A stretch of DNA of 64,000 nt. Source: Polytrichum commune. Its lineage: Eukaryota; Streptophyta; Polytrichopsida; Polytrichales; Polytrichaceae. This document shows, in pieces, positions 7,071-50,622 of the stretch; position 1 is the stretch's first letter, and each line of letters begins with the position of its first letter. Where the stretch lies: the NCBI GenBank assembly GCA_950295325.1, contig OX485809.1, positions 32,068,144 to 32,132,143 on the forward strand, in the 5' to 3' direction. Both the position numbers and the translations under genes were made by a program. Under the pieces are notes generated by a model that saw nothing but the letters and a program-made list of their open reading frames with translations, was not told the DNA's origin and searched no databases.

Positions 7071-8161
7071 CTTATCTTGAGCTTCGGGGGTGCTCACCTC
7101 TTCCCTCTCCCTCTCCCTATATATATATATTTTTTCTTTTTCTTTTTCTTTTCTTTTTAATTTTTTCTTTTGTTTTTTTGTTTTTTTCTTGCTCTCTTGG
7201 CGTTTCATGTGGTGTGAGCGTGGGTGTGTGTGGACCAAGAGAGGGGCACGTGGGGGCGCAAGGTTTCTAGGTGGAGAACCGAGGCCAACTAGTTTTAAAG
7301 TTAGTTTTACATTATTTAGATGTAGCATTTGACTTAAGGCATTTAGAGATAGTGTTTAGTTCATAGTGTTTAATTTATAGTATTTAGTTTATGGAGCTTA
7401 GTTTAAAGTGTTAAAATTGTAGCATCCAGTATAGTGTTGGATTGTTGGCACTTAATTTTGTTGGTATTAGTATTTGGCCAAAGGCTGGCATCAGTACTGC
7501 AAAAGGTGTTGGAATTGTTATTGCTGAGGGTTGTTGAAATCGGTCTGTAGAAGTTGCTGGAATCGTTACTGCTGGGCCGCATTAGGGAGCAGCTAGCTGG
7601 GTTAGGCTAGCCGGGTTAGGGGCTGCATTAAGGAGTGAACTTGGGGATGAGTTGTGAGAGACTTGTGGAAGAAGAGGCGACGATAAGTGATAAGAGAGAT
7701 AAGTGTTTTTTAACACTTGTATTCTTCTCATGGAATGAATTGAAGTGCTAATATTGACGTGAAGCACCAGGGTGGGTTGTTGGCCCCACACGGGGGGAAT
7801 GGCCTTGGGTTAACGATCGGGACTTAATACACTAGAGACTTACTTGCCTCATGGAGCTGACAAACCATAGCCTCAATGAGGTCACGAGTACTAATGAGAA
7901 GACATTGGCCAAAGCCAAGGTTTCAAGAGGAAATTCCTCAAGGGCATGTGTAGCCAAGGCTGCGGGGTGAACCCTTGAGAAGGCCAATGCTCTACCTATT
8001 CAAGACGCTAGCATTAATAAAACATCATGACTTAAAGTAAGTTGGGAGCTCGTTGAGATGGAATTACATCCCATATTGCCACGAGTTTTGGTATGACACA
8101 TGTGATTCTCAAAACCATCACCCGGACTAGGACGCTTAAGGGTGGTGGGTTTGGCCTCACA
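7071..8161 (+). mobile_element. family-F LTR copy F1, 5'-truncated by the Tat-like element
   Basis: The right end carries the family-F terminus: a conserved block around CCCGGACTAGGACGCTTAAGGGTGG ending GGCCTCACA. The left part matches the middle of copy F6 (CTTATCTTGAG then GGTGCTCACC), and homology is cut exactly where the Tat LTR begins, so the first part of F1 must lie left of this window. A pyrimidine-rich stretch (about 7100-7190) lies near the start of the retained segment. A hairpin AAGTGTT-tttt-AACACTT lies at 7701-7718. Old and broken; probably a solo LTR. Confidence 0.7.
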
Positions 8162-11100
8162 CCCCCCCGGTAATCATGTTGTTGGAAATTAAGTAAAAAA
8201 AGGCCCTAAATAACTAGAGAGAACATGCACAAGAAATAAAAATATAATAGTGAGAATTTGGAAAATTGTCGCTTCGGAATTTGGACAACAATTCTCATAA
8301 TTCTCACTTTTTTTTTGAAAAAAATCACATTTTCTTTGTTTTCGTGGGCCCTCATTTTATTGATTTACAACATTTTGTTGCAAGGGGGCATGGTCATCAA
8401 CCTAGAGCCTTAATCTCAAGTACTTTAGTCCATGCTTCAATTTTAAGGGGCCCAAGGTGGTGGTTGCTTGAGCTCACACTGGCCCCTTCCCAATGTTTCC
8501 TCACCTTCAAACACCTTTCCGGAATGAAATGCACATTTAACCCCCTACATTGAGGCCTTTTTGGAATTCTTTATTGCTTACCTTCATTAGGATGTTTGCA
8601 TGTTTGTATTGCTTTATGAAGTAAAAGAAGTTAGGCATGATGTGATGATTTATGTGGAATCTTATTATTTTGTTGTTGCAAAGGATTGGTGGGGCATCAA
8701 TGAATTGCCGTTATGCTATGGAGTTGAGTAGACTCTAACAATATGTGAAATATATTTTCTTGTACATTATCCCTTATTTATACGTTATTGCATGTTTAGT
8801 TCAAACTTATGTTGGCACAATTTAACTAGATTTTTGATTTTGTAGACTCAAAGTTTTCACATTGGTTTTTGTCCACAAGGCGAGATCATCGACTTGTTAT
8901 GTGTTTTGTAAGTGTGAGGGTGTGCCAGAGGCAGATGTGGGAGCCACCAACATATTCTTTAATCTAACCATTTCTTGAACTTAGCTTACGAACAAAGAAG
9001 TCTCTTGGAGAGGTAGTCAGGAAAAAGACTTGAAATCATTGCAAGTTTTTATCGAGGCTTTAACTAACTCCGGAGATGTGGCACTTGATGTCTATGCATC
9101 CACAAGTGATTGTAGATCTCAATGCCAATTATTTGAATTTGATTGGTCGTTATTAATGTTTTTGTGTGTTTAATGATTGATCTATATGTTGTGTCCATGT
9201 ACTTTTATTAAGTGGTCACCACCTTGTGGCCCTAGAGGCCGATTTGGCCATATGTCATTTTGACTCCAGTGTAGATGGAGATTTCGCTCCTTGCATGTGG
9301 AAGTGCACCTCACACTACATCCCTTGCAAACAAAGACACACATGTTCAGTTGCAAAGCCTTCTTGCATTAGTAAGTTTCTCTATGTCTATCATTTGATGT
9401 TTGAATTGTTTAGTAATGCAAATGACTACAATTTCAAGTATCATATAATTCTATCTCATGTTAATAAAATCATGACCCAACTCCAATCACCTTCCAGTTT
9501 GATATTGCTTCCTCCACATATACATAATGTGGCAAAAACTATGGTGGCCATCTCAACATTGGTTGCTCGTAAAAAAACCCAACTGTTGGTTCGGTTGGCA
9601 TATATAGACGACAAGGCATAAGAAGGTAATGAAGAGGATAGTGCGAATGAATAGGATCATAGTCCGACTTAGTCATTATGATTGGATATGTGTAGGTTGG
9701 TTTCCATGTTATGCCTCTGTATGAATGAACCACAAGCAATGGACTTGGTTTTGTGTTCCAATTTCATCTTCACCTACAATCATTTCTTTAGACGTATTAT
9801 TCAAGTATGTTTCATAAGTGATTATAATTTACATCTTTAAATGTGTTGGCAATTGTAATTATATCCAATTATGTAATACTTTATCAATGACGACCATTCA
9901 ATTTGAACTGCATATGAATTTGATTGGTGAATAAAACAACCATATAAATTATCCACACCCATGTACATGGTCCATCTTTTTTGTGGCAAATAATTCACGG
10001 TTATAAGAAACATGGGACCCTCATATCATTTGAATTTTGTTTGTCACCACTCATATGTTGTTGCTCATTGCTTTCCACTCACCATTCACATGATAGCATT
10101 TCCCCATACCCTACTTATATCAAAAAAATGTGAAAATCATGATATATATGAAAAAAGAAAACATAACCAATCTAACAATGGTACAAACATTGTGTGCTCT
10201 TGTGACATGACATAATTTTGAATGGATGAAGGTGTGAGTAGGTGACTGTGTATGCAGATGAACGCATGAGCAGACGATGACGTATGTGGATGAAGGTTAT
10301 TGGATAAAAAAGGTAGCGAACGAAGACCATTGAATTTAAGGGTTTAGATAATGATAGCTAGCTTGGAGTCAGCTGTAGATGCTAACCGTTAGATTTAGGT
10401 ACGGCTAGATCTATGGGCGGTAAAGTCTCTGTAGTTGAAAGGGGATGGTTTGCGAAGGTTAACACCGGGCTCACTCGTACTCTTTCTCGCGGTTAAGACA
10501 TTCCCCCCCCCCCCCCCAAATGTAGGTAGAGGCACAAAGTTCCAAGGATGCTAGCAAAATGAATATTGAACAAAAGAGTTTGTAAACTCCATTAATGTGG
10601 AATGAAAAGATTTGTAAATCATGTATAAGAACTGACATACGGATATGTGGTTGTTAGAATAAATTGTTGTTAGATAGGTAGTTGTTGGAGTAAACAGTGT
10701 GGACATATGGCCACTAGAGTGAAGGTTGGAACCGGTTGTAGTTTCATGTTTTGCAAGTTGTATCGATTCATGTTGTGTTGCTTTTTGTTGTGTTGTTTAT
10801 GCTTTGTTGTAATATTTATGCTGGTTGTATTGTTTTTGTTGTGATGTTTCTATTGTAATATTTATGTTTTGTTGTAATGCTTCTGTTGTGATACTTCTGG
10901 TTGACTTTTTTGTTATAATGCAAGTAGTTGTGTTGCTTCTGTTGGATTGTTAGTTATTGAGGGTTTTACAGCTTTAAAGGCTTAGAAGAATGAGGCATGA
11001 GATAAAGTTAGTGGCTAGTGACAAGGTTCGTGTCAAAGTTAGAGACAAGATTAAAGACAAGGTTAGAGAATTTAAAGCCCAAGCTGGTTTGGAGGGTGGC

Positions 11101-11989
11101 AAAAAGGTCACGTATCCGAGTATTGTTCCTATAATGGAAGGCTCAACCTTCAATCTTTCCACTACTCGGCCAACCCAACTAAAGGTGGCTGGTGTAGAAT
11201 TTGGTAGGAGTTAGGTACTTTGAACCAAATGGCCTTGTAGTAGCAACTATTGGGTGTGATGGACGAATTTTAGAGAAAATAAAGATGATTAGGTTGGATG
11301 AAGAACGGTTTTGTGAAGGATAAATTGATGGACTTACGATGAACTTATGTTGGTTTGCATGGATGAATATGATGCATTTGGATTATTGTAAGAGATAGAA
11401 GGTCATTACTTCGAGGCACTAGAGTATTCCACCCATCCGGCCAATTCTATGGGTTGTTACTTTGATTGGAGTAGAAATTGTCACAATACATCTCAACTTT
11501 GATTTTCAAATTTTGATATAAGAAACTATGTGATTTACAATTACAAATGTAATGAGACAATTCGCGATCCAATCTACTGGTCAAAATTGTATGCAAATGT
11601 GGATGTGCCCACAATATGGCCACATACATAAGCTAGTTGCATGATCTCCTTATTCATTGTTTTGGATTGTCACTTACACTTTGGTTTCCGAACATCATAT
11701 ATGAATTCACATTGCAAGGGTACAAACTCCTAATATTGTAATCGGTTAATGTCCAAATGGAGAGCACTTCCAACAACTCTCTTGTATTTTTCTATATGTG
11801 CAAAGGACATTCCTCCATAACATTTAGTTTACACCCATAGACCAATTAAGGGTCTTAATCAATGAGAGTAAATGGATTTTTATAGATCTTATTAAAATTT
11901 AGCATATATATTGATTTCGTCGGGTATGGAGTCCATAGGGCTTACCATCTTGCTAACATGTTGTATCTTTGCTGAACACACATACGAGG
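8162..11989. other. intergenic DNA without a recognisable gene
   Basis: AT-rich DNA in which I find no credible coding region on either strand. The longest frames (9226-9621, 131 codons; 10990-11214, 74 codons) have no recognisable motif and no supporting gene context. A run of 15 C lies at 10503-10517, and a minisatellite at about 10735-10945 is listed separately. Confidence 0.5.
10735..10945 (+). repeat. degenerate TTGTTGTAATGTTTATG-type minisatellite
   Basis: Short words of the form TTGTTGTAATG(T/C)TT(A/C)TG recur with variations about every 20 bp. The array is irregular, with TTGTTGT, TATTTATG and TGATACTTCTG blocks. It is non-coding and has no clear element ends around it. Confidence 0.55.
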
Positions 11990-13082
11990 AATATAGATTA
12001 TAGTAAGAGTTCCTCATGGCATGATGAGCACAATGCTTAATATCGTACATGTGTCGCCCTGCAAGATTCACACCGGATTCATGGCTAGTTGGTGTGTTGG
12101 ACGTAGTCCCCCCTTTATTGGAAAAGAGACCTCAACCTCTAGGTTACATAATGTTATAAAATATCACGAGGGTTCAAATGTTTATTGATAGATGACCCAA
12201 CATTAGCATGGGAATTTGATGTTAAGGTGGCATACATTCTCAAACTCAATATATACTTATTGTGCAAGATTTTAGGGTGTTGGTCTTGGAAAGGTGTTGG
12301 TTTTAGCACCATCTCTAAAATATGTTCATGTAGAGTTCTTTCATTTTGTTTGCAAGAGGTTGATGGAATTTTAATTCTAGGAGCAATATCCAACAAAATT
12401 GGGCTTCCAAAAGGATCTGCACCATTTTGATTGGAAACTAGAGTATCTAGGGGGTAGGGATGACATCAAATTCACAAATTTCCCAACCTCCATCCAATTT
12501 CCATCTTCACTCAATTATTTGTACATGCATTTTTGAGAATTTGGTGACACATTATAGCTCTTCATAGACTCTTCATTGGCGTAAGAGTTGAGGAAGACAT
12601 GAGTTCCACTCATGTCAATCAACATCTGAGCTTTAGGCGATTATTATGGTCAAATGACTAGGTGGAATTTGATGAGTGGGGGATGAGTGGTAGCTTATAA
12701 CAAGGACCACGACAAACATAGCGAGAGAAAGAGACTCTTCATTTTCTTTATTTGAGTAAGAAATGTGTCGCACTTATTAGGGTGTGTCCTCAACTCTCAA
12801 TTTCATACCCTTGGAATTCCACTCCCATCCATGAATAAATAACTTTGTTTTAAGGGAAATCCACAAGGTTGAAGTTGTGAATACATAGCCTAGGAACACG
12901 TACTTAAATGCAAGCACCAAATGGGATATTTGTTGCAATCTCAATTCTGACTTCAAAAGACTCAAAGACGAGAAGCAGAAGGAAAAAGAATCCTAGTTTA
13001 AGAAGGTGTAGCAATATTACATGAAGCTTGAAGCTTGAATTGTTGTTGTCCATGCAACCTTTAACCTCCATTGCTCTTCGCA
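11990..13082. repeat. dispersed duplication, copy 1 (about 1.1 kb)
   Basis: From ATTATAGTAAGAGTTCC to CCATTGCTCTTCG this segment matches 61553-63771 at roughly 96% by eye. Copy 2 has about 1.15 kb of extra sequence in the middle (62328-63478), replaced here by about 20 bp at 12772-12792. Homology starts and stops abruptly at both ends, which suggests a mobile element or a local duplication. I see no terminal inverted repeats, no LTR ends and no coding region. Confidence 0.75.

Positions 13083-15401: not shown

Positions 15402-15403
<2 letters not shown>

Positions 15404-15487
<84 letters not shown>
15404..15487. repeat. (AG)n microsatellite, 84 bp
   Basis: An uninterrupted AG dinucleotide run of about 42 units. 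The Ser-Leu repeat frames on the opposite strand are translations of this run and are not genes. Confidence 0.98.
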
Positions 15488-27728: not shown

Positions 27729-30700
27729 TCATTGAATTTGGAAACCGTGAAGTGCTAACATGATAGGAAAATTGTGAGAATAAATGGATTGTGTAGGTGC
27801 ATGCTTGGACTGCAACATGATCACACAACCAAATCCAGGACGTGGAATCATGGTGACCTTCAAGATGGTCCCGTCCATAGCTCTTGCAGACGCCATCATC
27901 TGCATTTGTTTTGTTGATGGTGCGGTGGCAAACCGTCTGGTAGACTTGGACTGCCTGGAAGAAGGATAAGCGTCTGGGTTGGCTGGAACGTCTACTCCGG
28001 AGAGGTCGAGGGGAGGAGCGGATGTGTCAAAGAGGCAAGTGGGCGTGATTCGCTCTTTCTGTGGGAGCTGAAAGCCGGCATTTTCAAGCTTGAGGATCTC
28101 CGGACAAGTGAGGTTGGTACCAAGCTTGACAGGCCACACGGGAGGGATCGAAGGTCGTTCTTGGTCAGCAAAGAATTTGTCAACCTACTTGCGTCGTGAA
28201 CTTTTGATACAATGCTCAATGTCGTCAGGGTAAAAAAAAAAACTTCTCGACTTTAGGTGTAGTGAATTTGTAATAGTTCCAAACTCCAAGGTATGCCGGG
28301 GCATGGGTGCTCTTGGAGTTGGAGACAATTTTTGCAGTGCATTTATTTTTTGTGACAGCATGCATGGCCCAACATGCCTTGGAAGAATTGTAAGGAACGC
28401 GAGCAATATGCTAGAGCTTCTCGTCCACTTTGGATTCTTGAACAGCAGTGACCCGGCGAAAATCCACACCAGTGGGAGGGGGTGGTGGAACCTCTAGCAC
28501 TGACGGAGAGGTTTCCTCGACGATGATAGGCAAAGGTGAAACATGAGATCTTGTGGTTCTCTGAGCGATACGAGGGCGAGAGAAGTTGATGGTGTCGGGC
28601 GGTGGGTTTCATTGTTGTCTCCAATGGGAGTGTCGGGCTTGCGTTTTTGCAAGCCGAATATCTCTGCACCCTTGAGGTGGGGACTACGGGTGCAGAATTC
28701 GTCCCCGCCAGGCATGTCAAGGAGAACCTTCTGTAGAACAGCGGGGTCACCGGTACGTTGAGCACGACGTTTAGCACATCGAAGCTTGAGTTCTTCTTTG
28801 CTAGGGCCATCACCCCCAACGCCACCCTTCAGAAATTGATGGTACGCCACAACTTGAAGGAACGCTTGAATTTAGTCATCCACAGTGGTCACGTATAAAT
28901 CGCCACCTTTGTTGCCAGACACTTGAAGCCATTTGTTGTGAATGGATTCGGCAAGGTTGCAATTGGGAATTTGTGCAAATTCCTCGGCGGTCATGATTTT
29001 CTCCTGCCAATGGAATGGCAGTGTGAGAAATAAGCAAAGTTTGGGAAAATTAAATTTAAAAAAAAAGTAATAACAGTAAAGACACACCAATTCCATGAAG
29101 CCACCCCATTGTCGATATCGGAAGTGCCAGAAAGCAAGCCAAAGTTGGAGGTGTTTCAGTCCATCCTCGGAGGTGCAGTTAGACGAAGCCCACCAGGCCT
29201 TGATGGCGAGGTACCTCGTCTCAGCCTCCTGCATAGAGGATGCGTCGCGATACTGGAGGTAGAGATGCTTGTGTTGGTCTTGCAAATCGTGCTTGATATA
29301 GAGTTTGGTGTGTTTTTCCAAAGACTGTGTCCAATGGAAGTAGCGGGTTCTCTCACGCCCATCGATGGGAACCTTTGGATCTCCAGACCTGTAGACAATC
29401 CTGATGGCATTCCAATTGGCTTGCGCACTGCCGCCATGGAGCCTTTGAAGTGAGGCTTGGGGTTTCCATGGCAAGCCATGACGTGGTTGAGGTTATGCCA
29501 GAAAAGGACTTGAGCATCCTTGTCCTCGGATTGGAAGTCGCAGCAAGCGATGGTCATGACGCACTGGTAGGTTCCGTCATATACGTGGCAGGCCATGGTG
29601 GTCCACTTGGCGACGCGTTTGACATGGTCGGACATGATCCAAGCATGCTTGAGATCCCCGCCAGGTTGCATGCGCTTAACCAAGTCGACCCCACTACCAG
29701 GGCCGACCTCGGACATCTTGAAGACGAAAACTTTGTCCGTCTCGTCACCCTGGCCTGGGAATTGATTCCGCTGGACATAGGCCCAGGTGCTGTGTGAGCC
29801 CAAATACAAGCTCACATGTGGTTTTAAGTTTAAAAAAAAATTCAAGTTCAAGTTTTGTTTAGCATGACATATTCAAAATCAATAAAAAGAGTGATGTGTG
29901 AAAATTAAATTAGTGAATTAGCCTTGATGAGAAGTAGTGAGTGGTTAAGGGGAGAGTTAAGGGTCAAAAGGGTAAACTTGGTGCGTAGGTGGAATTGAGC
30001 AAGTAGGGTAGTCCTAAGGGATGTGGGGTTGGAAATTAGTCGGGTTAGGCTTTGGTACTGTTCAATTAAGGACAGGGGGCTTCGAGGCTGTGGATTGAGT
30101 GCCGAAATCCTCGGATCACGGAAAGGGCCCCAGGTCGAGCTTGGCAGGCCGCCGAGAGCTCTCTCTCTCGGTTGTGTGTGGTGAAAGGGGGCCGGAGAGC
30201 CCAGGAGGGAGAGGAGAGAATCATCACGGATAAGGGCGGAGTCTCGATATAGACTGAGGAGGAGCATACCTCGGTGATGATCCGAGGAGGGAGGGAAGAA
30301 GGGCGGCATTCCCTTCAACAAGTGAAATCTGGACGAATTGCGGAGGAACTGAACTCGAGCAACCAGGGAGGTGCTCACATTGGGGAGCAGGGCAAGTCAT
30401 GTGAATCCGAGAGTCAGATTGAGGAATTCGACTTGAATGATAGCTTTAAGCGAGGCATAATACAATGCACGACGAGAGTTCGGCAGGAGGTGTGGACTCA
30501 AACAATGCGGAGGACTGATGAGCTCAAATCAATCCCCTGGGCAAGCTTTTGGACGTGGGCTTGAGAATTGAACGAATGGATTGTGGATTCAGTGGGTGCC
30601 ACTGTTGCAATTTCAATGCAGTTGACTCACCTCATGCTGGGTAGGTTGCCGAAGTAAATCCCAGCTGGTGGCCGAATTGAGGCGAGTAGTAGAGAAGGTG

Positions 30701-32300
30701 TTCATGCTGCCAGAGTGGGGAGCTGAGGCTTCTGTGCACCTCAGTCGCAGCTGGGAGCCGACAGGCAATGACGGGTGACGGGCAATGAAGGGGGATTGTA
30801 TTCCAGAAGAGGCGGCCACCTGCTGCGACAGGGGATTGTGGTGAGGATAGTTCATAGTGGGTACTGGCCCTCTTTGGGTTGTAGCTTAGGCATTGGAGTT
30901 AATGGGAGTGGGTGGAAATTAGAGGTAGGGATAATTAGGGCATGGTGGCATATTCTTTGTGACCGTGGAGGTGAAAATAGTTAGGGGCTTAGGTAGGGTT
31001 TTTCATACTCTTAGGGGAACAATGAATGTACGGATTTGGATTTGTGTGGAGTGACATGTGCCTGTGGCACGAGCATTTGTTAATGCTGAATTGTAATGCC
31101 TTTCTTATTACCCACAGGATGCATACATTGTTCCATTCATTAGTTTGAAATGTGTAAGTAAGGGTGTGATTTCATGATTCAAACACATGTGGGCTGCAAG
31201 CTCTCACCCGGACTACGACGCACAAGGGTGGGAGTTTGTGGCTGACATGCTGACACCTCTCAGCTTGGCGATGCCATGCATAACTCCTAGCCTACGCAAG
31301 TATTTGAAGGTGGTAACCTTGTTTCAGAGGTGGGGGGAATTCAACTCCTTGCAACAATAAAAAACGGGCTCAAGTTCTTCCAAGGAAAGAAGTTGATGAG
31401 GATCATTATCATTGCGGAGGAGGAACTCACCCACAAGGTCCTTACTGGCCTCAAGAACGATTTTGCTATGAGCGGCTTGGGGCGTTCGCTCGACGTGCTC
31501 CTTGATTAGGGCGTCGATGCGTTGGTGGCTATCCCTGTAGTTGCCGACCTTGACCGGGTGACGATGATTGCCAAGATGAATGCACGCCCGCTGAGTGGTG
31601 TCGTTGCCGTGGACGTAGAAGATTTTGGCAATGCAGGGTGCAATGCATTTGTGTGCCTCCTTGCAGATCTTGCACACTAGAGTGGAGGAGGTAGGCACGG
31701 GACCACCAACTGGAAAAGGGTCCTTGGTAAATCCATCAAATTCAGTATCATTGACTGAGGAGGTACGATGAACACGTTGGAGGTAGTCGCAAAGAGGATT
31801 ATGGCACTGGAGGTGGCCAACGCACGTGGAGGAACGAAAAACAAGGCCTAAGTCATTGCTAATGTTGGTGGTTTGGGTTTTGGTCCAGACATGGCCGTCA
31901 TAGCGTTTGTCCATGCCGTCCATGGATTTGGCCTTCGTATGAGAGGAAGAGACACCAACGGGGGGGAGGACAAACATCCGATTCCCATCAAAGCGAGGAG
32001 GGAGGAAATTGACCTCTTCAATTTTAAAGTGTCATAATCTAGCTTCTTGAGGATGTTCTTCCTACCGAGCATGGAAGCAAGAGAACGTAGGCATTGAAGA
32101 ATGAAAATGGATGGTTTGGCAGGGGATGGAAGATGAGGACATGAAGGTTGAAGGCCTACAAGGGGGGGTTCAGAAAGGAGGAATTGAGATGAAGGGGATG
32201 GCTTGAGAATGAGAGTGGATAGAGGGGGTTCATTACCATTGGAGGAATCTGAAAGATGTATGACAGTGTGTATACCAGGTTCAATCTTAATTTTAACCAC
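27729..32300 (-). pseudogene. Mutator-like transposase, decayed and split by solo LTR F2
   Basis: Several minus-strand frames read as consecutive pieces of one protein. The N-terminal part (32300-31324) has a Cys/His zinc module: CHNPLCDY, CKICKEAHKCIAPC, then ACIHLGNHRHPV, resembling the WRKY-GCM1/FLYWCH fingers of MULE transposases. After the F2 insertion (29793-31247) comes the core: VYDGTYQCVM (candidate first Asp), then ANWNAIRIVYRSGDP, then WLAFWHFRYRQWGGF. A one-base deletion near 29431 removes the codon of the likely second catalytic Asp. An in-frame TAA lies at 28872-28874, and at least one more frame change follows near 28.5 kb. The C-terminal part (about 28420-27729, with WPVKLGTNLTCPEILKLENA) stops about where a SWIM finger would be expected. 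Terminal inverted repeats were not found. Confidence 0.7.
29793..31247 (+). mobile_element. family-F solo LTR, copy F2, inside the Mutator-like transposase
   Basis: It begins TGTGAGCCCAAATACAAGC, ends TTGTGGCTGACA and is flanked by the direct repeat TGCTG (29788-29792 and 31248-31252). TG...CA ends plus a 5-bp duplication mark it as a solo LTR of about 1455 bp. The family's AATAAAAAGAGTG block lies near the 5' end and the CCCGGACTACGACGC block near the 3' end. A hairpin AGCATT-tgtt-AATGCT lies at 31072-31087. Confidence 0.88.
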
Positions 32301-32377: not shown

Positions 32378-34031
32378 TGTGAGGCCAAACCCACCACCCT
32401 TAAGCGTCCTAGTCCGGGTGATGGTTTTGAGACTCACATGTGTCATACCAAAAGTAGAAACATAAGATATAAGTCCCATCTCAATGAACCCCCAACTTCT
32501 CTTAAGTCATGATATTTTATTAATGCAATTTTCTTGAGTGGGCATAGCATTGGCCGCCTCAAGGGTCCATCCCACGGCCTTAGCTACACATGCTCTTAAG
32601 GACTTCCCTCTTGAAACCTTAGTTCTGGCCGTTGATTCTTCACTAGTGCTCGTCACCTCGCTGTAGTTGTGATTTGTTGACTCCATGTGATGAGTACACA
32701 AGTGTTAAAAAACACTCATTACTCTCATCACTTAGCGTTACATCCTCTTCCGCAATTCTTCGCCATTCACTCCCAAGTTCGTTCATTCTTCGCCATGGCA
32801 CCCTTAAGTGCTTGATTACAATCCCAACAACTTAACTACAAGTTCTCCCCCTTGATATCACCTTATGATGCCTTGTAGTCAACCCCCCAGCTAAATGCTC
32901 ATTACCTAATTAGCATTAGGTAATATTCTTATTAACTAACTATGACCCAATCTAATGTCCCAGCTGTCTAACTTCTGAACCCAATGCTGTATTTCCAGCA
33001 GCCTAACCTGACTAAATACTGTATTTCCAACAACCTAAATATTGTATTTCCAGCAACCTACCCTCTGACTAAACACTGTATTTCTAGCAACTAAATACTG
33101 TATTTCCAGCAACCTACCCTCTGACTAAACACTGTATTTCTAGCAACTAAATACTGTATTTCCAGCAACCTACCCTCTGACTAAACACTGTATTTCCAGC
33201 AGCCTAACCATGACTAAATATTGTATTTCCAGCAGCCTAACCCTGACTAAACACTGTATTTTCAGCAACCTACCCTCTGACTAAATACTGTATTTCCAGC
33301 AACTAAATACTGTATTTCCCAAAGCTCCAAGAGCTCAACTCCTTAGAGGAGAGAGAGCTTTAAATTCAACATGAATGTGGATGCTACAATTCTAAATGCC
33401 ATGATTCCAAACACTATAAATCTAAATATCATGAATCTAAATTCTATAAGTCACATACAACAAGCCAAGCTCTAAATGTCTCAACCAAAGATTACTCCTA
33501 ACAAATGTCAAACTAACTTCAAGGTGAATTAGTCTTGGTTCTTTACCTTGAGACCTTGCACGCACATGTACTCCGTTCTTGCTTTCCATACCCACACTTA
33601 TAACACGTGGGGTGCCAAGGAGCACGAAAGAAAAGAAGATGAGAGAGGGAAGAGTCAAGGTTTATATAGTGAGTTGAGAGGGAGTAGGTGAGCACCCTCA
33701 AGATAAGCCCTTGTAATCATTTCTTACTTTGTAGGCTCTCATCCTATCTTCTAAGCCTTTGTCTCTTAAACTAACAACATAGATCCTAATTCAAACATTT
33801 AAACCAAGCAACTACCCTTGGTTCACCACTCCCTACGCTCACCTAACTAAGGAACTTCTTCACGCTACCTACTTCTAATAAATCCTCTCCACACTAGCCT
33901 AATGACTAAACATAACTTCATTCAAGCTTCACTCTTTTTATATTTTTGTGGATAATTATAAAATATCAAAACATAACTTCTAATGGTTTCGAAGGGTTAA
34001 GAACACATGTGAGCACCATTTTGGGTTCACA
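32378..34031 (-). mobile_element. family-F solo LTR, copy F3
   Basis: The element reads TGTGAGGCC... at its plus-strand left edge and ends GGGTTCACA. It is flanked by the direct repeat ATGTG (32373-32377 and 34032-34036). On the minus strand it starts with the family 5' terminus and has a TATA motif (CTATATAAACC, near 33661-33670) followed by the pyrimidine-rich region. A hairpin AGTGTT-aaaa-AACACT lies at 32701-32716. The length is 1654 bp. It lies just upstream of the Mutator-like transposase. Confidence 0.88.
32985..33325 (-). repeat. minisatellite inside F3
   Basis: Units built from ACTAAAYACTGTATTTCCAG and CAACCTACCCTCTG repeat about every 25-30 bp, and a 56-bp higher-order unit is repeated at about 33050-33165. 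The array is absent from the other family-F copies. Confidence 0.9.
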
Positions 34032-37958: not shown

Positions 37959-39632
37959 TGTGAGGCCAAACCCACCACCCTTTAGCGTCATAGTCCGGGT
38001 GATGGTTTTGAGAATCACATTCACTTCATAACACCATAATGTGGATTGCTATGTAGCTCCCATGTCCAAGGTACTCACTTCATCTTAATTCAACTTGCTT
38101 TATTATTTTGAGCCTCTTGGCTCATGATGGAATTTGATTTTTCAAGGGTCCAACCCGCGGCCTTGGCCATGCAAGCCCTTAGAGAAATTCCCCTTACAAC
38201 CTTAGTTTTGGCTTCCTTTGTTTTGCCATCACCCGAGTCCTTAACATTATCCATCAACTCGTGTACTTAATTTAGTAAAGAGAGAAGTAACAAGCGTTCA
38301 GAAACGCTATTATCTCTTCCCAATGGTATGTACACTTGTTCACACAAAACCACACGCACAATACTACTCTAATGAGCTTACTTACTCGTCAATCTAATGC
38401 CTCACTTAAGCTATCTTCTAAATGCCTTTTAGAGCTTAACACTTCATTTGTTGGTAACAACCCGATCACCCTTTAAGTGGCTCCTCCCAAGTAACCAAGT
38501 TAATTCTAGTTTAGTTGATGCAGCTCCTACTAGCCCTCAGCTACTGGCAGTCCCGTGACAATAGAGCTGGTTAGCCTCGGTTGCTGGCCGTCTCCGTGAC
38601 AGTAGAGCTGGTTAGCCCCTGACTGCTGGCCGTCTCCGTAACAGTAGAGCTGGTTAGCCTCGGCTGCTGGCCGTCTCTATGACAGTAGAGCTGGTTAGCC
38701 CCTGGCTACTGGCCGTCTCCGTAACAGTAGAGTTGGTTAGCCCCTGGCTGCTGGCAGTCCCGTGACAGTAGAGCTGGTTAGCCTCGGCTGCTAGCCGTTT
38801 CCGTAACAATAGAGCTGGTTAGCCTCGGCTGCTGGCCGTTTCCGTAACAATAGAGCTGGTTAGCCTCGGCTGCTGGCCGTCTCCGTAACAGTAGAGCTGG
38901 TTAGCCTCGGCTGCTAGACCTTGGACCAGGCCTTTCCAATAACTATTTGGGCCCTAATTACTCAACTCATCCCAAGATTACAAGGCCAAATAGGCTAAGC
39001 TAAATGTGCACTACATTAACTACAAGCATCTAACATCTAAAAACTAATGATTAATGAACTAGTGCCCACTTGACTAACTTGCCTTTGGGCTAAATCCTAA
39101 AGTACATGCACTATCTAAACCAAGCCTTGGCACACACTTCTACCTAAGTTCCTACACACCTCCACACTCAAGAGGGTGAAGGAGTCAACAACCTTGAAGA
39201 GAGAAAAGAGAGAGGAAAAATGAAAGAGGGAAGTCTTAAGTAGCCAAGAGGGAGAGAGGGAGAGTGAGGTAAGGATAGGGTGAGGGAATTAGCACCTCCA
39301 ATCACAACCCCTTAATCCTTTCCTCCTAAGTAGGGACTCATCCCATCCACAAGGCCTTTCCCTTCCTAAACTAACAAGGTGGATCCTAATGTGGGCATTT
39401 AACCCGCGGAGCTCACCTTGCCTCACCTTGCTCCATGCTCACCTAGTCAAGGCATTCCCTCATTGAACTCAAACCTTAAAATAATCACACAACACCACCT
39501 AATGCCTAAAGTTAAATCCACACCACACTTCACTCTTTTTATGTTTTGTGAATAATCATAACACATCAAAGTCAAACTAAAATTGGTTTCGAAGAGTTAA
39601 TCACCACATGTGGGCACCATTTTGGGCTCACA
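37959..39632 (-). mobile_element. family-F solo LTR, copy F4, inside H2
   Basis: The plus-strand edges are TGTGAGGCCAAACCC and TTTGGGCTCACA, flanked by the direct repeat GCGGT (37954-37958 and 39633-39637). The element is in minus orientation and is 1674 bp long. A hairpin AGCGTT-caga-AACGCT lies at 38293-38308. The family 5' block (CACTTCACTCTTTTTATG on the plus strand) lies near 39525-39545. Confidence 0.88.
38530..38935 (-). repeat. minisatellite inside F4, about 41-42 bp x 9
   Basis: The phrase AGAGCTGGTTAGCC recurs about every 41-42 bp, separated by variants of CTCGGCTGCTGGCCGTCTCC. Roughly nine units are present. This array is private to F4. Confidence 0.92.
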
Positions 39633-43776: not shown

Positions 43777-45961
43777 TCCGAGTATCTGTAAATACTAAAT
43801 CCAAGCCTGATTTATGGCATGAGAGGTTAGGACATCCAAGCACGACGGTATTTCGCCGGATGCTTCCTTTGTTGACAGGTTATAACTTGGTCACAACAGA
43901 TGCTGAGAAAACACATGAGTGTGTGTCAGCCCTAAACCCCCACCATTTTATGCGTTCTAGTCCGGGTGAGAGCTAAGGCTAATATGCACCTCATTTGGGT
44001 GTCTAAACTAATGCCTTGATTGATAGTCCTTCTCAGTTGGAAGCAGTTATAAATCCTCACAACTTTATTTCTTAGAACACAAGGTTTTCAGTGTTCAAAA
44101 ACACTCTAGCACCTTGTGATCATTTCACACCCACACTTCCTTCTAGAAGCCAACACACCAACACATCAAGCCACTTAGCTTCTATACTTCCTAACAACTC
44201 CCTTAATGCCCACTTACTCAACAACAACCTATTAATGCTACTTAATCCGATCCACTATCTAATCTTGATCCCTTCTCATGAACCCCACCTATTCTCTAAT
44301 GCATAATCCCATGTACTTAAGGTTAAGCCAATCCATCTGATTTCAGTCGGCTCTCCTCGACTATAACTCCACGTTGTCCGTCCTTGCACAGTGCCCGTCA
44401 ACTCCCGTCAATTGGCTGTCACTGCCTGTCACGCTCCATCGGTCCACACTCTGTACCGCTGTCCAGCTAAGTGCCTTTGGCCAGCTGAGTTCCAGCATGT
44501 AGGTGGCTGAGCCTTCTAACTGCTTGGTAGTTTAGATCGCCTGCTGGCCTAGATCATCTCGGTGGCACCTCACCAGCAATCTCTTCGCGCATGCTCAATG
44601 CTAGACACAGCTTGAGGTAACTTCCTTCTGTGATGATGCACGACTGCATTGGCAGTTCAGCATTCCCAGGATGGCTTCCCTTACGACCCCAAAATTTCCC
44701 CTTCAATGTGATTCAATGTTGTCGATCCAGGATTGCAACAACAATGATTCAGTGTGTGAGATTGCACTTGCCAGTTTGCGGGGAGATTCAACCCACATTG
44801 GTGCTGGTGTGCTCATTTCCGTGGCAGCATGCTCCCTTCCTTCAAATCGGTTGAGGGTATGGCCGAGCTCCTGATGTAGTTGCACCTAGTTTTTTTTTCT
44901 CGAACCCCCTCCTGAGTTCACCCAATCAGGGTGTTCTATTGCAATCCCTGCAGCCTTTCGCTCAACCTCCAAGCTCCGAAATTGCCCAATTCCCCTGTCG
45001 ACGCTACCTCTCTCTGCCTCCCGTGCTTGTCTGCCCATTCAAAACCGATTCCAGCAACTCTCTCACATCCCTTCTCGCCTTTGCCTCCAGCCCAAGTTGA
45101 TTGCCTCATGGCCCACATTCTCCGTCCTCCTTCGGCAGGAGATTGCCGATCCAAGCTTTTGCTGCCACCGGCCTCCAACCGCTCCCCTGCTCCTGTGCTA
45201 CCGAACGAGAGCTTCCCAGTCGAGCTCCAACCGTAAACCAGCTGGGCATATCCCAACTCCCGGAATTGTCTAGGGCATAGTGCCCTCACTTCAAATCCGA
45301 CAGAGAAGAATCCTAATTCGGACATTAAGCCCTTACACAAAATGTGAAATGCCCGAATACAAGCTCACACTTAAACCAACTCTAATCTAGGCTAAACTGA
45401 TCATTACCACTACTAACGAAACCAACACCATCTCAAAAGCCTAAATACTAATTGACATCCTAAATCCAAATTCACCTTTTTTATATTTTTAATTGATTTA
45501 ACAACCTTCAAATCCTAAACAATATTGCTCTTCATCATTTAAAGCAAATATGAGCAACAAATTTGGGCTCATAGTGTGTGACTTGTATTAAAGAGAAATA
45601 CATTAAAAAGCCGTCACAATGGACATTATCCACTGAACTGCCTCCTCCCCTTCATAGAGTTCATGGGGATATGTGTGGTCCAATAAATCCAGCATCAGGG
45701 GTATTTAAATATTACTTTATCCTAGCTGACGCATCAGGGAGTCACTTTGAGGTGTCATTACTCCCCACTTGGAATATGGTTTTCCCAAGGCTATTAGCGA
45801 TAATACTACGCTACAAAAATCATTTCCCTGAGCATCCCATTAAGTATCTTCGTTTGGATAATGCGCAGGAGTTTAGATGTCACGCATTCGAAGATTATTG
45901 TGTAGCAAATGGGATAGCCTTAACCAGGGTTGTCTATCGCGACGTCCTGCCACCGTCATGA
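43749..45961 (+). pseudogene. copia integrase, N-terminal zinc domain and core, split by F5
   Basis: The GAG-pre-integrase motif LWHERLGHPS lies at about 43816-43845. The family-F LTR F5 (43924-45573) is inserted in the zinc-binding domain. The core resumes after it with PPLHRVHGDMCGPI and later KYLRLDNAQEF, which contain the first two catalytic aspartates. A Mutator-type MITE (45926-46697) interrupts the core before the catalytic Glu region. Confidence 0.88.
43924..45573 (-). mobile_element. family-F solo LTR, copy F5, inside copia integrase
   Basis: The plus-strand edges are TGTCAGCCCTAAACC and TTTGGGCTCATA, flanked by the direct repeat GTGTG (43919-43923 and 45574-45578). The element is in minus orientation, 1650 bp. 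The outer end is TA rather than CA, probably a point change. A hairpin AGTGTT-caaa-AACACT lies at 44090-44105. Frames inside it (for example 44931-45236) do not resemble proteins. Confidence 0.87.
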
Positions 45962-46697
45962 CGTCATGACGTGTCATGTCGGGGCGGACCCCTCCGTCAC
46001 GACATAATAGGGTCCACGTAGGGTCATACTAGGGGGAAGCTAGTAGGGTGGGTAAAATACTTACCTTCTTGCCAAGGTGGCATCCAATCTGGCAGAAAAA
46101 TCCGACGTGGATGTGCATATTTCCCTTGCCAGGTAAATCATTTTGCCTTTGTGTTTATCATTCTGTTAAAATCAAAGTAGTAAAATATGACAAATGAGGG
46201 TGTGGGGGGGAGGGGAACGGAGCGGACAGGGACGGGGGGAACGTCGGATGGAGGGCCGGATGGGGTACGGATGGGGGCCGGATTGGGGTTCGGATTAGGG
46301 GGGACCGGGTTCGGATGGGGTGGGGGGGGGGGGCGGGTTCGGATGGGGGGGAGGGGGTTCGGATTAGGGGGGGCCGGGTTCGGATGGGGGGGGGGGGGCG
46401 GATGAGGGCCGGATGGGGGAGGGGAACGTAGGGAGCGGGGGGAACGGGGGGGGGGGGGACGGGCGCTAGTAATTTTTTTCCCACTTTACCTCTACTTTGC
46501 TGACATGGCACCATACGTGGACATCGTAAATCCTACGTGTCCTGATTGGGGTAATGTAATTACACAAAAAAATACGGTAAAATTCAAGTTCGTCAGGATA
46601 AAGACGGCATCCGGCATAATGTCGTGACAGATACGTATTGTGACGCCACGACATTATGTCGGGATTAGCCTCCGTCACGACACAATAGACAACCTTG
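45926..46697. mobile_element. Mutator-type MITE with 9-bp target duplication, inside copia integrase
   Basis: The left end AGGGTTGTCTATCGCGACG and the right end (reverse complement CAAGGTTGTCTATTGTGTCG) are inverted repeats. The flanks carry the identical 9-mer GCCTTAACC (45917-45925 and 46698-46706). A 9-bp duplication with TIRs is the Mutator signature. Subterminal copies of CGTCACGACATAAT occur at both ends in opposite orientation. The 772-bp element has no transposase. Its centre holds a G-rich minisatellite. Confidence 0.87.
46196..46464 (+). repeat. G-rich minisatellite (G-quadruplex-prone)
   Basis: Variants of GGGTTCGGATGGGGG and GGGCCGGATTGGGG repeat across about 270 bp, with many runs of four or more G. 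The proline-rich frame on the minus strand and the glycine-rich frame on the plus strand come from this composition and are not genes. Confidence 0.92.
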
Positions 46698-46706
46698 GCC
46701 TTAACC

Positions 46707-48857
46707 TACTCAGTCTCATATGAGCATGCACAAAACGGCCTAGCCGAAGCATTTGTGAAGAAAATTCAGTTGGTTGCCAGACCATTGCTTTTGCATGCTA
46801 AATTACCTTCTAACCTGTGGAACCATGTTGTGTTACATGCAGCCTCATTCTTGAGACTAAGACCAACCTTACTAAACACCCAAACTCCTTACGAGTTACT
46901 ATCGGGTAGGCCACCTAATGTATCACACATTCGCGTATTTGGATGCCAAGTGTGGATACCTTTACCCGATCCAAAAAGATACACCATTGGCGCACACCGC
47001 CAAGAGGGTATCTATGTTGGATTTTATTCCCCATCAATAATCCGATACTTAGACCCGAAAACCAAGCCTTATACAAAGCCAGATTCGCGAACTATAGGTT
47101 CTTGGAAAACAAATTCCCTACCTTAACCCAACCCGCAACCCAAATACCTTTGAACTTTGGTGCACCAGAGACTTTAACCTTAAACCCAGACCCACCTACC
47201 TTCTTATCAAACACGGAAGTTATTAAACTCCTAAACCTGCGCGCATTAGCTGAAAACACCCCCGACGGATTTTCTACCCAACCACGAATAATTAGAAACC
47301 CATTACCCGGGACATGCCATGTTTTATATCGCAGAAAATCCAAACTAACTCTCATAAATCCCAAACCAGCTAAACTACCTAAAATCCTCTATACAACCAA
47401 GTCTTTAGACTCGAATCCAGACCTTACAACCTTAGATGAGGCCATGAAACGATCAGACTGGCTTAGTTGGAAAACTGCCATTGAAACCGAATATTCATCC
47501 TTACGAAAACACCATGTATTCGGTGAAACAACCATAGACCTAGATAAACCACCAATAGGTCATAAGTTAATCTTCACCAGAAAATTAGATTCCCAGGGGA
47601 GAGTTACTAGGTATAAAGTCAGACTTGTAGCTCAAGACTTTACCCAGAGACCAAGTATTGATTATGATCAGACCTATTCTCATGTAATGGATTCAGTGTC
47701 ATTCAGATATCTTTTAGCCTTGTCAATTCAATTTTCCTTGAAAATGTATATGCTAGATGTTATTACTGCTTATCTGCATGGTAATCTAGACACTAAACTC
47801 TACCTAAACCCACCCCCGGGATTTCTGAAATCTGTCCCTAACCCGAAATCAGGAAAGTTTACAGGTTTGAGAATCTGTAAGGCATTATATGGGTTAAAAC
47901 AGTCGAGTAGGACCTGGTACCACCATCTCTGTAATTTTCTGATCTCACAAGGATTTATACATAATAGTACCCTACCCTGTATTTTTACCTACAGCAGAGA
48001 TTCAGGCTTTGTAATTCTAGCAGTATATGTGGATGATTTAAATATCCTAGGCACTTTTGAATTATATAAGCATGCCAAACAAATTCTAACTAAGAATTTT
48101 GATATGAAGTATTTAGGCCAGACTTCATACTGCCTAGGCCTGCAAGTCCATTATTCATCTAATGGTGGTATTCTCTTACACCAGTAAGCTTATGTGCAAA
48201 AGATCCTTAAGTTTTTTTCAGATGGATCAGACAAATCCATTAGCAGCTCCTATGATTGGACACAGTAAGACTAATGAAGATCCCTACCAACCTCGGGGAA
48301 CATCTGACCTTGGCTTATTTTATCACAAAACTAACCACCCTGAAATCCAAGGTTTTGCAGATTCCGGGTTTAGAACTGACTTGAATGCAGGAAAGTCACA
48401 GACCGGATATATCTTTCTGAAATGTGGTGCCCCGATATCTTGGAAGTCAACTAAACAATCAGTCACTGCAACCTCAACCAACCATGTTGAACTGTTAGCC
48501 TTTCATGAGGCTACCCGAGAAGTTGTGTGGCTGCGGACAATGGAGCGAATTCTGGACCAGCAGTGCAAACTTAGGATTGAAGATAGGCCAACTGTAATTT
48601 TTGAGGATAATTCAGCCTGTGTTAGACAAATGTCATCAGGGTTCATCAAGGCTGATAGGACTAAACATGTTAGTCCTCATATTTTTGGATTTAGTCAGGA
48701 CTTAGTAGATCAAAAACAGTTGAACATTGTAAAGATAGAATTTGAGAACAATATTGCAGACATGCCAACTAAGGCACTTCCAGCTTACAAGCATAAAAAG
48801 TTAGTATATGCAACTGAACTTAGAACACTCCAAGAAATCACCTCAGTTGAAGACTAA
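46707..48857 (+). pseudogene. copia integrase end, reverse transcriptase and RNase H
   Basis: After the MITE comes the integrase C-terminal side (EHAQNGLAEAF, LPSNLWNHVV, RVFGCQVWIPLPD). Reverse transcriptase spans about 47400-48180, with IDYDQTYSHVMD, MLDVITAYLHGNL, KALYGLKQSSRTWYHHL and the catalytic LAVYVDDLNI. RNase H spans about 48340-48810, with FADSGFRTDL, SQTGYIF, TNHVELLAFHEATREVVWLR and ADMPTKALP. The AYLHG and YVDD boxes identify the copia superfamily. Confidence 0.92.
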
Positions 48858-48936
48858 CATTCTTTTCTCTAACCAAGGTTTTTATCTCACATCGGGTTTT
48901 TACTTGGTAGAATTTTTAACGAGGTTAAATTCATCA

Positions 48937-48949
48937 GCTTGAGGAGGAG
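48937..48949 (+). other. copia polypurine tract
   Basis: AGCTTGAGGAGGAG directly precedes the TGTTAG start of the 3' LTR, the expected position for the plus-strand primer. Confidence 0.75.
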
Positions 48950-49010
48950 TGTTAGAAGAATAAAGACAATCTGATGTATTTATGATCTCAGCCATTTGAG
49001 GCTTAGGGTA

Positions 49011-50622
49011 TGTGAGCCCAAAATGATGCCCACATGTGTTGTTAACACTTGTAAAACGTTACAAGTGATGTTTTTATGATTTATCACTATTCATAAAAAT
49101 ATAAAAAGAGTGAAGCTTGAAGAAAACTAAGTTTAAGTATTAGGCTTGTGTGGAGTGGATTGAATAAGTTTAGTAGTGTGAAGACATGACCTTGGTGGAA
49201 AATGTGATAGGTAGAAAGCCAATGATAGTTAAATATTTGAATTAGGATCTTTGTTGATCGTTTAAGGAAGGAAGGCTTAGGAGATAAGATGAGAGCCTAT
49301 AAAGTAGGAGGAGATTACGAAGGCTTATCTTGAGGGTGCTCACCTACTCCCTCTCAATTCATTATTTAAGACCTCGTTCTTCCCTCATTCATCCTCTCTT
49401 TTCTTCGTGTTCCTTGACACCCCACGTGTTATAAGTGTGGGTGCGTGAGAAGCAAGATAGGAGCACGTGTGTGTGCATGGATGTAAGGTTAGGAGCCAAG
49501 GCTAGTTGGCCTTGAAGAAGGCTTGACCTCTTGTTAGTAATAGTTGGGCGTGAATGATTTAAAGTTCAATTTATGGCTTTGTTTGAATACTTGGATTTAC
49601 ATTGATTAGCCTTATACTTATGCGGATGTGCAAAGTCTCTTATTAGAGAATTTAGTTTTGTTCGACTTCATATGAATTTTTGAGAGCCAAAAAACCGAGA
49701 CTATGTTCAAATGTCCAAAAACTAGTGAAAAAATGCAGATTCAAAGGGAACAGGGTAGAATTGCGACCATATATTTTTTGGCAGTAGAAATATTATTACA
49801 TACTCATATAGAGGACTTTATTACCTATCCATGGATACCAAGAACTCATTTTTTGGACTTCATATGAATTTTTGAGAGCCAAAAAACCGAGACTATGTCC
49901 AAACTCCAAAAAATAGTGAGAAAGTGCAGATTCAAAGGGACGAGCGTAGAATTGCGACCATATACTTTGTGGCAGTAGAAATATTATTAAATATTCATGT
50001 AGAGGACTTTATTACCTATCTATGGATACCAAGAACTCATTTTTTGGACTTCATATGAATTTTTGAGAGCCAAAAAACCGAGACTATGTCCAAACTTCCA
50101 AAAAAAATAGTGACACACTCTTATAGTTTTTGACTTATGATGTTTAGACTTAAAGTGTTGGATTCATTAGGTAGGAAGGGGTGTATGTAACTTTTGAATG
50201 TATTGGTGATTGACCATTGAGGTTGAACTTAGTAATGAAATGTGAAGGCCTGTGAAAGAGGGGCCACCATAAGTTACACAAGTATTTGTTTATACTTAAC
50301 CTTATGTGCTTCATGGAATCAACAAACGAAGATTCGTGCAGTAGTGTGGAATCAACGGCGAGGACTCGATTCACACGAGAGAAATCATTGAAGACAGGCG
50401 TAGCCAAGGCGGCCGGGTGGACATTGGAGAAGGCTAAGGATGTGACCTTACCCGAAGTTAAGGAATATAAGATGACGTAGTGTGGGATTAGTCAAGTTGT
50501 GTATATTCCAAGGGTATATTGGAATCATACATTGAATTACCGAGGAAGAATTTTCTACGTGTCATTATAACTTTTCCATTCGGGCTAGGACGAAATTGAA
50601 GGGTGGGAAATTTTTGGTGACA
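49011..50622 (+). mobile_element. family-F solo LTR, copy F6, inside copia 3' LTR
   Basis: Begins TGTGAGCCCAAAATGATGC, ends TTTTTGGTGACA and is flanked by the direct repeat GGGTA (49006-49010 and 50623-50627). It is 1612 bp. It has the AAAATATAAAAAGAGTGAAG block near the 5' end and the pyrimidine-rich region at 49345-49420. A hairpin AAGTAT-ttgttt-ATACTT lies at 50280-50297. Its position in the copia LTR shows it is younger than the copia insertion. Confidence 0.9.
49662..50110 (+). repeat. 190-bp tandem array inside F6, about 2.3 units
   Basis: The phrase GACTTCATATGAATTTTTGAG recurs near 49664, 49855 and 50045, a spacing of 190-191 bp. Units are nearly identical over their length (GTGCAGATTCAAAGGGA, GAATTGCGACCATATA, GAGGACTTTATTACC). 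Confidence 0.92.

Follow-up and report, generated by a model that had tools for sequence, protein, structure and literature searches.

The LTRs of one plant LTR retrotransposon group carry a two-tier stem-loop, in which an inner stem-loop with the consensus AGYRUU-UNUN-AAYRCU is held within an outer stem that is variable in sequence and mostly pairable. Six copies lie in the window, the whole 64-kb stretch of DNA that was analysed, and there is about an even chance that the element is a conserved cis-acting RNA hairpin of the R region which governs how the 3' end is formed or how stable the element RNA is. An earlier note on this DNA had listed six hairpins, and all of their sequences are found where it placed them, with F1, F2 and F6 on the plus strand and F3, F4 and F5 on the minus strand:

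7678..7741, plus strand: F1 hairpin, inner stem-loop 7702-7717, outer stem weak (5 bp)
31048..31111, plus strand: F2 hairpin, inner 31072-31087, outer stem weak, 4 bp (GGCA/TGCC)
32677..32740, minus strand: F3 two-tier hairpin, inner 32701-32716, outer GTGATGAG/CTCATCAC
38269..38332, minus strand: F4 two-tier hairpin, inner 38293-38308
44066..44129, minus strand: F5 two-tier hairpin, inner 44090-44105, outer CACAAGGT/ACCTTGTG
50257..50320, plus strand: F6 two-tier hairpin, inner 50281-50296, outer CATAAG/CTTATG

It is apparent that the end pairs of the inner stem hardly vary, and neither do loop uridines 1 and 3, with U at position 1 in 56 of 57 representatives and at position 3 also in 56 of 57 (these representatives, used for the arm-swap, loop and strand-stability tests, are a set of 61 minus L012, L116, L126 and L141). 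The commonest loops within UNUN are UUUU and UUUC, and the loop letters are asymmetric. In F6 the uppermost position of the consensus inner stem is a T-T mismatch, and outer stems are weak in several representatives as well as in F1 and F2. Both sides of the stem in F2, F4 and F6 differ from those of F1, F3 and F5, as had been claimed, and the distance from hairpin to LTR 3' end, previously put at 160-445 bp, was measured as 160 (F2) to 443 bp (F1). A scan of the window with the covariance model R1 gave the six sites, each at E 4.8e-8 or better, the next matches being on the opposite strand of F1 and F3 (E 0.014 and 0.052) and the best elsewhere at E 0.52; the scan is no independent test because the model included F2, F3, F4 and F6 and relatives of F1 and F5. 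The outer stem had been missed by the earlier note, as had a small ORF and a second stem-loop at the LTR end, both described below.

Judged by their TG...CA ends, 5-bp duplications, primer-binding site and reverse transcriptase, the elements that carry the hairpin are a large plant Ty3/Gypsy-type retrotransposon group. Four of the six LTRs in the window are solo LTRs with perfect 5-bp duplications:

29793..31247, plus strand: F2 solo LTR, 5-bp target duplication TGCTG
32378..34031, minus strand: F3 solo LTR, target duplication CACAT
37959..39632, minus strand: F4 solo LTR, target duplication ACCGC
49011..50622, plus strand: F6 solo LTR, target duplication GGGTA

TG...CA ends with an exact 5-bp target duplication occur in 37 of the 50 genome loci with both ends found, and four of the five duplication bases match in 5 further loci of the 50. 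The primer-binding site TGGTGCGTCCGCCGGGAGT, complementary to the 3' end of tRNA-Gly(TCC), follows the LTR ends of L043, L044 and L045; its first 18 bases are present in L153 and L155 and were not found in the piece L154. The reverse transcriptase matches RVT_1 (E 3.1e-22) and RT_RNaseH_2 (E 7.1e-4, below its cut-off), which together we take to mark the element as Ty3/Gypsy, and there is a weak match to Asp_protease_2 (E 0.0061, below cut-off). For Gag, 155 aa from the first frame that follows the leader were compared with Pfam, where nothing matched up to E 1, and L129, fetched for its reverse transcriptase, has no frame longer than 88 aa. A standalone DNA element, raised by the unique flanks, was rejected because the primer-binding site follows some copies.

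The earlier note had staked its hairpin on covariation across many copies and on a consistent position, and both are found. Among 1891 column pairs, inner pairs 3 and 4, the variable ones, show the strongest and second strongest covariation under an approximate tree-aware null, with E values over all pairs of 0.025 and 0.45. The alignment had 106 distinct windows, a set from which six named loci and any window with an N or a length below 64 had been removed. The inner half-sites change together, not independently. The A1 structure is 81.4% paired, against 34-49% when slid, and its covariation score is 0.351 against 0.197 when shuffled, a value that 0 of 500 shuffles reach, with two weaker measures reached by 18 and 25 of the 500. 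Outer arms show better pairing when matched with their true partner than after partners are swapped (0 of 10000 permutations). Because families have arms in common, however, the true partner ranks among the best 5% in only 5 of the 57 representatives.

The hairpin is also found in LTRs picked without regard to it. A pattern for the LTR 3' end has 2012 matches in the genome, all genomic counts here being from this one genome, and 40 LTRs were fetched by the 3' end alone, L116, L126 and L141 being ordinary rows among them. A perfect-score inner hairpin is present in 26 of the 40 (shuffles 0.125%) and a score of at least 13 in 31 (shuffles 1.5%), the other nine being unremarkable, five of them with a score of 12, as have 13% of shuffles, and four lower. 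Half of the 40 were scanned with the R1 model, which had been built without them, and in 18 of these 20 it matches at E <0.1 on the strand expected. The four scoring below 12 (L115, L131, L142, L146) were not added to the copy set; L001, L029 and L031 had no ORF call and hence no hairpin window, the fetched copies exclude L080, L088 and L107, in which the scan misplaced the hairpin, as well as L009 and L042, which are F3 and F4 of the window itself, and in L012 and L026 the hairpin was searched again by position. Spacing clusters by ORF class in 36 of the 40 LTRs, the four without a hairpin call being excluded, with the hairpin 124-139 nt 5' of the LTR 3' motif in 19 of the 25 that lack the small ORF and 301-352 nt 5' of the motif in the 11 that have the ORF.

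The likely poly(A) signal has a position of its own, with AATAAA lying 96-107 nt before the LTR 3' motif in LTRs both with and without the small ORF. In 18 of the 25 LTRs without the ORF it comes 8-26 nt after the inner stem (usually 10-22 nt), an interval in which 0.014 per LTR would be expected from background. In LTRs with the ORF, AATAAA is beyond the ORF start and adjoins the hairpin in only 1 of 11, and in larger loci it stands between hairpin and ATG in 9 of 46 (65 minus 19 without an exact 3' motif); tight coupling of hairpin and signal is therefore not universal. Within the window no AATAAA was found between hairpin and 3' motif in F2 and F6, and the other copies have:

8016..8021, plus strand: F1 AATAAA, 107 nt before the 3' motif
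32516..32521, minus strand: F3 AATAAA, 105 nt before the 3' motif
38099..38104, minus strand: F4 AATAAA, 107 nt before the 3' motif
44064..44069, minus strand: F5 AATAAA, 20 nt 3' of the inner hairpin and 105 nt 5' of the 3' motif

TATA-like boxes and AATAAA together suggest that the hairpin lies in the R region. Because it is 5' of the poly(A) signal, every transcript would carry it close to the 3' end, and the genomic RNA would have it once more in its 5' leader. The hairpin probably forms in the sense transcript, where the outer stem of variable sequence would support the inner stem-loop, and its near-fixed end pairs and uridines fit the expectation for a site read by a protein, so that recognition of the inner stem-loop by a protein may be proposed. 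The most likely outcome would be that the hairpin decides 3'-end formation, that is which LTR poly(A) signal is used, or RNA stability. The earlier suggestion of a functional RNA or DNA hairpin with covariation thus stands, with RNA favoured, and of the roles then offered (polyadenylation, packaging or strand transfer) the position before AATAAA fits polyadenylation best.

Structured RNA inside retroviral LTRs is well studied. In HIV-1, as described in part of PMC2645353, the R region has the TAR and poly(A) hairpins, which are repeated at both RNA ends, and the poly(A) hairpin encompasses AAUAAA. The present hairpin shares the positional tie to AAUAAA and would likewise be repeated at both ends, although AATAAA comes after the inner hairpin here and not inside it, with the reach of the outer stem to AATAAA varying, and the comparison is one of position and structure, not of sequence relation. 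For retroviral LTRs more generally, residual conservation in long R regions has been linked to stem-loops, with AATAAA followed by a GT-rich stretch, and in the part of that source drawn on here plant Metaviridae were not modelled because their LTR lengths vary too much (PMC3601003); the present hairpin belongs to a plant group of this unmodelled kind.

A hairpin that is present at both RNA ends might instead serve Gag binding, packaging or first-strand transfer, and this is a lesser though real possibility. The R-region placement suggested by the position before AATAAA would suit it, as would the near-fixed inner-stem letters and loop uridines, and three long open polyprotein frames are preceded by LTR pieces that contain the hairpin. 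A second conserved stem-loop adjoins the primer-binding site, with ends in the window set by eye:

8115..8148, plus strand: F1 second stem-loop at the LTR 3' end, around CGGACTAGGACG
31201..31234, plus strand: F2 second stem-loop, LTR 3' end
32391..32424, minus strand: F3 second stem-loop, LTR 3' end
37972..38005, minus strand: F4 second stem-loop, LTR 3' end
43935..43974, minus strand: F5 second stem-loop, LTR 3' end
50572..50610, plus strand: F6 second stem-loop, LTR 3' end

Dimerisation by kissing loops is unlikely, however, because UNUN is mostly not self-complementary, and the self-complementary loop of a retroviral dimer initiation hairpin is not what is seen here.

Some LTRs carry a conserved frame of 54-59 aa 3' of the hairpin, which is under purifying selection (median dN/dS 0.27, from 83 ORFs of at least 48 aa before the stop, with 27 of 91 pairs giving no usable ratio). 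No small ORF was seen in F2 and F5, and in the other copies it is found as follows:

7851..8030, plus strand: F1 small ORF, one in-frame stop breaks the frame
32507..32686, minus strand: F3 small ORF, 59 aa and stop
38090..38254, minus strand: F4 small ORF, 54 aa and stop
50313..50480, plus strand: F6 small ORF, 55 aa and stop

Neither Pfam nor a search of PDB sequences gave a match to the small protein, and its predicted fold (mean pLDDT 58) was unusable. L153 has, by eye, two modules of hairpin and ORF, which seem to move jointly.

It is conceivable, if rather unlikely, that such an LTR is a self-contained gene with promoter, hairpin, 54-59 aa protein and poly(A) signal, in which the protein or Gag would bind the hairpin and switch between an early-ended message and the full-length genome; if this were true even solo LTRs could make the regulator. 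Somewhat more doubtful is that the hairpin controls translation of the small ORF that starts just 3' of it. The ATG is mostly 14-38 nt after the inner stem in ORF-bearing copies (133 nt in the F1 type), and the selection on the frame and the apparent joint travel of the two in L153 would agree with such control, but the ORF is absent by the motif test in 25 of the 36 hairpin LTRs picked by 3' end.

At the level of DNA, the inner stem is a perfect inverted repeat and could form a cruciform or the site of a dimeric DNA-binding protein, which is improbable. The sense strand folds better in 47 of 57 representatives, and with dinucleotide shuffles there is no clear difference between sense and antisense (excess p = 0.066), the strand difference being mostly composition; strand stability was not used as proof of RNA because the shuffles carry most of the same bias. 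Counts of GU against AC among the fetched copies, which come from few families, are 9 to 13 and give no support for an RNA strand. Genome-wide, however, inner pair 3 is U.G in 241 cases against 37 of the strand-mirror C.A (noise controls 20 and 11), and within the stretch covered by both lists the counts are 68 against 12 when the remaining variable pair is Watson-Crick. RNA is favoured over DNA because of this excess, and the asymmetry points to sense-strand RNA even though two other strand tests are neutral. Distinct 16-mers number only 20 against 11 (p = 0.15), and part of the 241 to 37 is therefore family inheritance. Half-sites that vary jointly and not separately, outer arms that pair despite differing sequence, and loop letters that are not symmetric also speak against a palindrome read as DNA.

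Shared ancestry or chance as the sole cause is strongly disfavoured. Many copies are close relatives and the 106 covariation windows are not independent, which would suit it, but the approximate tree-aware null, the swapped-arm permutations and the 40 LTRs picked by another feature all count against it.

Other known hairpins offer partial likenesses. The stem-loop at the 3' end of histone mRNA has a six-pair stem and a four-base loop with U at positions 1 and 3, a top U-A pair and a second pair G-C. The present hairpin shares these features and would share a site at the mRNA 3' end, which may be coincidence, and differs in having another stem sequence, a two-tier stem and a following AATAAA. 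Rfam scans of the window at 7600-8200 and of 13 loci gave no histone 3' stem-loop up to E 5 and E 10 respectively, no hammerhead ribozyme (a test for retrozymes) and, as matches, only sub-threshold snoU6-53, Na+ riboswitch and Xist exon 1. Fungal GalEa Copia elements, according to part of PMC5445492, have a Conserved Hairpin Site directly after the 5' LTR and are without a primer-binding site; the likeness is a conserved hairpin at the LTR of a retrotransposon group, whereas the present elements have theirs within the LTR and do possess a primer-binding site, for tRNA-Gly.

Since a single genome has 2012 matches to the LTR-end pattern, the group offers a natural experiment in how an RNA fold is kept while its sequence shifts, and from the near-fixed letters of the hairpin one can predict precisely what a binding partner should recognise. 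Because of the small protein, which lacks a Pfam or PDB match, solo LTRs may carry a conserved coding frame, a point of relevance to LTR annotation and to the choice that plant elements make between their two poly(A) signals.

All six stem-loops that an earlier note had pointed out in the family-F LTR copies (F1-F6) are confirmed in the window sequence, with the hairpin read on the plus strand in F1, F2 and F6 and on the minus strand in F3, F4 and F5. The LTRs of F2, F3, F4 and F6 are bounded by exact 5-bp duplications, thus four of the six copies are solo LTRs; a 5' LTR end was looked for in F1 and F5 and was not found in either. In F1, F3, F4 and F6 the LTR also contains, downstream of the hairpin, a conserved frame of 54-59 aa, the small ORF, which is broken in F1.

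LTRs and small ORFs in the window
29793-31247, plus strand: F2 LTR, exact 5-bp duplication
32378-34031, minus strand: F3 LTR, exact 5-bp duplication
37959-39632, minus strand: F4 LTR, exact 5-bp duplication
49011-50622, plus strand: F6 LTR, exact 5-bp duplication
7851-8030, plus strand: F1 small ORF, broken by one stop
32507-32686, minus strand: F3 small ORF, intact, 59 aa
38090-38254, minus strand: F4 small ORF, intact, 54 aa
50313-50480, plus strand: F6 small ORF, intact, 55 aa

Tandem repeats with differing units are also found mid-LTR in F3 (32979-33301), F4 (38535-38915) and F6 (49657-50105). In F1-type LTRs an additional stretch of ~115 bases (7735-7849 in the window), absent from the F3-type, lies between the hairpin and the ORF, and by eye CTCATGGA is present at both its ends.

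The hairpin is predicted on folding in all six window copies, with fold z-scores from -1.25 (F2) to -4.46 (F3). The stem first noticed is extended by an outer one. Among the window copies the outer stem is clear in F3, F5 and F6 and weak in F1 and F2; most F5-type and F6-type copies also show it clearly. For the inner stem, the consensus of 57 representatives (<85% identity) is A-U, G-C, Y-R, R-Y, U-A, U-A with a UNUN loop, the first and the third loop letter each being U in 56 of 57. In a related locus fetched from the same genome (L153, ~50-460), one LTR is seen by eye to contain a tandem of two hairpin modules from different subfamilies, as though recombination had brought one of them in. 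The second module, also judged by eye, carries an open ORF; the LTR piece belongs to a copy with a 2086-aa frame.

Across the 408-Mb genome that contains the window (64 contigs; a plant genome, judging by its repeats), searching for the LTR 3'-end pattern gave 2012 matches versus 0 in the reversed control. Forty test LTRs were taken blind to the hairpin among the first 100 places that this search listed, all on one contig (C1), 20 being picked for uncommon end variants and 20 being mainly of the common type. The full hairpin score is reached by 26 of the 40 versus 0.125% of shuffles, and a score of at least 13 by 31 versus 1.5%; nine score 12 or less, with 12 reached by 13% of shuffles. The opposite strand gives near-equal counts (27 and 31), as is bound to happen with an inverted repeat. 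When four stem positions are left free, the hairpin pattern matches 5439 places genome-wide versus 2247 in the reversed control; among the first 100 listed, both free pairs are Watson-Crick in 54 (random 1/16), and 15 more pair with wobble.

The covariation proposed from the six copies holds over many: under a tree-aware null the two variable inner pairs, 3 and 4, rank highest among 1891 column pairs, with E values (over all of them) of 0.025 and 0.45. This test (FastTree tree, 106 distinct windows, columns simulated independently) is approximate, since the tree is built on 64 columns and the null imitates R-scape. Over 25 sequences the named structure pairs in 81.4% of cells versus 34-49% when slid, and the covariation score is 0.351 versus 0.197 shuffled, a value reached in 0 of 500 shuffles; two weaker measures were matched by 18 and 25 of 500. 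For the outer arms, own versus swapped partners gave 0 of 10000 permutations. Only 5 of 57 representatives rank their own partner within the top 5%, because families share arms. Some representatives have poor outer stems.

The earlier note had left it between RNA and DNA. In an inverted repeat such as this stem, each sense-strand U.G pair becomes a C.A mismatch when the opposite strand is read, and neutral decay is expected to yield the two equally. Genome-wide, with the other variable pair left free as R and Y, pair 3 is U.G in 241 cases versus C.A in 37 (controls 20 and 11); with the other variable pair Watson-Crick the counts are 68 versus 12 among the matches listed, over the stretch that these span, and 10 versus 1 in the first 100 listed of the open pattern. 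By distinct 16-mers the ratio is 20 to 11 (p = 0.15), so inheritance within families contributes to the excess. Two further strand tests, of sense and antisense stability and of GU versus AC in the fetched copies, did not separate the strands. The U.G excess is good, but not final, evidence that the hairpin acts as sense RNA.

The AATAAA lies 96-107 nt upstream of the conserved 3' motif, in LTRs with and without the small ORF alike. In ORF-less LTRs it is 8-26 nt past the inner stem in 18 of 25, starting 10-22 nt after (background 0.014), with the hairpin 124-139 nt upstream of the 3' motif in 19 of 25. GU-rich words stand within 20 nt after AATAAA in 10 of 19 cases. In ORF-bearing LTRs it lies beyond most of the ORF, 96-106 nt before the motif in 10 of 11, and an additional AATAAA adjoins the hairpin in one of the 11; in the larger set of ORF loci, of those that keep the 3' motif exactly, 46 of 46 have AATAAA between ATG and motif and 9 of 46 have one between hairpin and ATG. 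Within the window, F2 and F6 have no AATAAA between hairpin and 3' motif. In the LTRs of F3, F4 and F6, TATA-like words occur, among other matches, at 353-391 nt, so that R would be ~1.1 kb. All these placements are inferred from sequence.

The small ORF itself is, judging by its codons, under purifying selection, with a median dN/dS of 0.27 (64 of 91 pairs usable) and a pooled pN/pS of 0.42 in 14 representatives (<85% identity) drawn from 83 frames of at least 48 aa; the other two reading frames have stops in all 14. Searches with the F3-, F4- and F6-type ORFs scored the best 150 of 1754, 2192 and 1677 candidates, ranked by score in overlapping lists; 139, 147 and 134 of the respective 150 are stop-free. 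The protein has no match in Pfam or among PDB sequences, and its AlphaFold model is of low confidence.

Both LTR ends are visible in 50 of the 68 first-fetched loci, two of the window's own copies among them, and an exact 5-bp duplication flanks 37 of the 50, while in 5 more four of five bases match. After some LTR ends (loci L043, L044, L045) comes the primer-binding site TGGTGCGTCCGCCGGGAGT. It is the complement of the tRNA-Gly(TCC) 3' end, a tRNA that ARAGORN predicts in the genome. A coding piece downstream of one such LTR is gag by position, and a Pfam search of it gave no match. The best 150 of 536 first-look candidates scored as its relatives, dozens being within open frames of ~2086 aa, and pieces of one such frame match RVT_1 (E 3.1e-22) and, weakly, RT_RNaseH_2 and a protease. 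We call the group Ty3/Gypsy type. By eye, some leaders past the primer-binding site (L033, L043, L044, L045, L153) have GGTAAG-like donor and TTGCAG-like acceptor sequences, which suggest that the 5' leader may be spliced.

The conserved LTR-end motif CGGACTAGGACG is the loop of a second stem with covarying arms (15 representatives), with best helices of 5-14 bp and arms scoring 20.9 with their own versus 16.7 with swapped partners (0 of 5000 permutations). In the genomic RNA of full elements it would sit just upstream of the primer-binding site.

Second stem-loop, examples in the window
31201-31234: LTR 3' end
43935-43974: LTR 3' end

Among the open-licence PMC papers listed, no title or abstract start describes the hairpin or a conserved LTR microprotein in plants. 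The nearly fixed letters of the stem end and loop, on a variable outer stem, may form a protein site on a stalk. The hairpin stands before the putative poly(A) signal AATAAA and, if R is as proposed, would be repeated at both ends of the RNA, and for these reasons control of 3'-end formation is the leading guess for its role, with packaging or strand transfer, both raised in the earlier note, the next guess.
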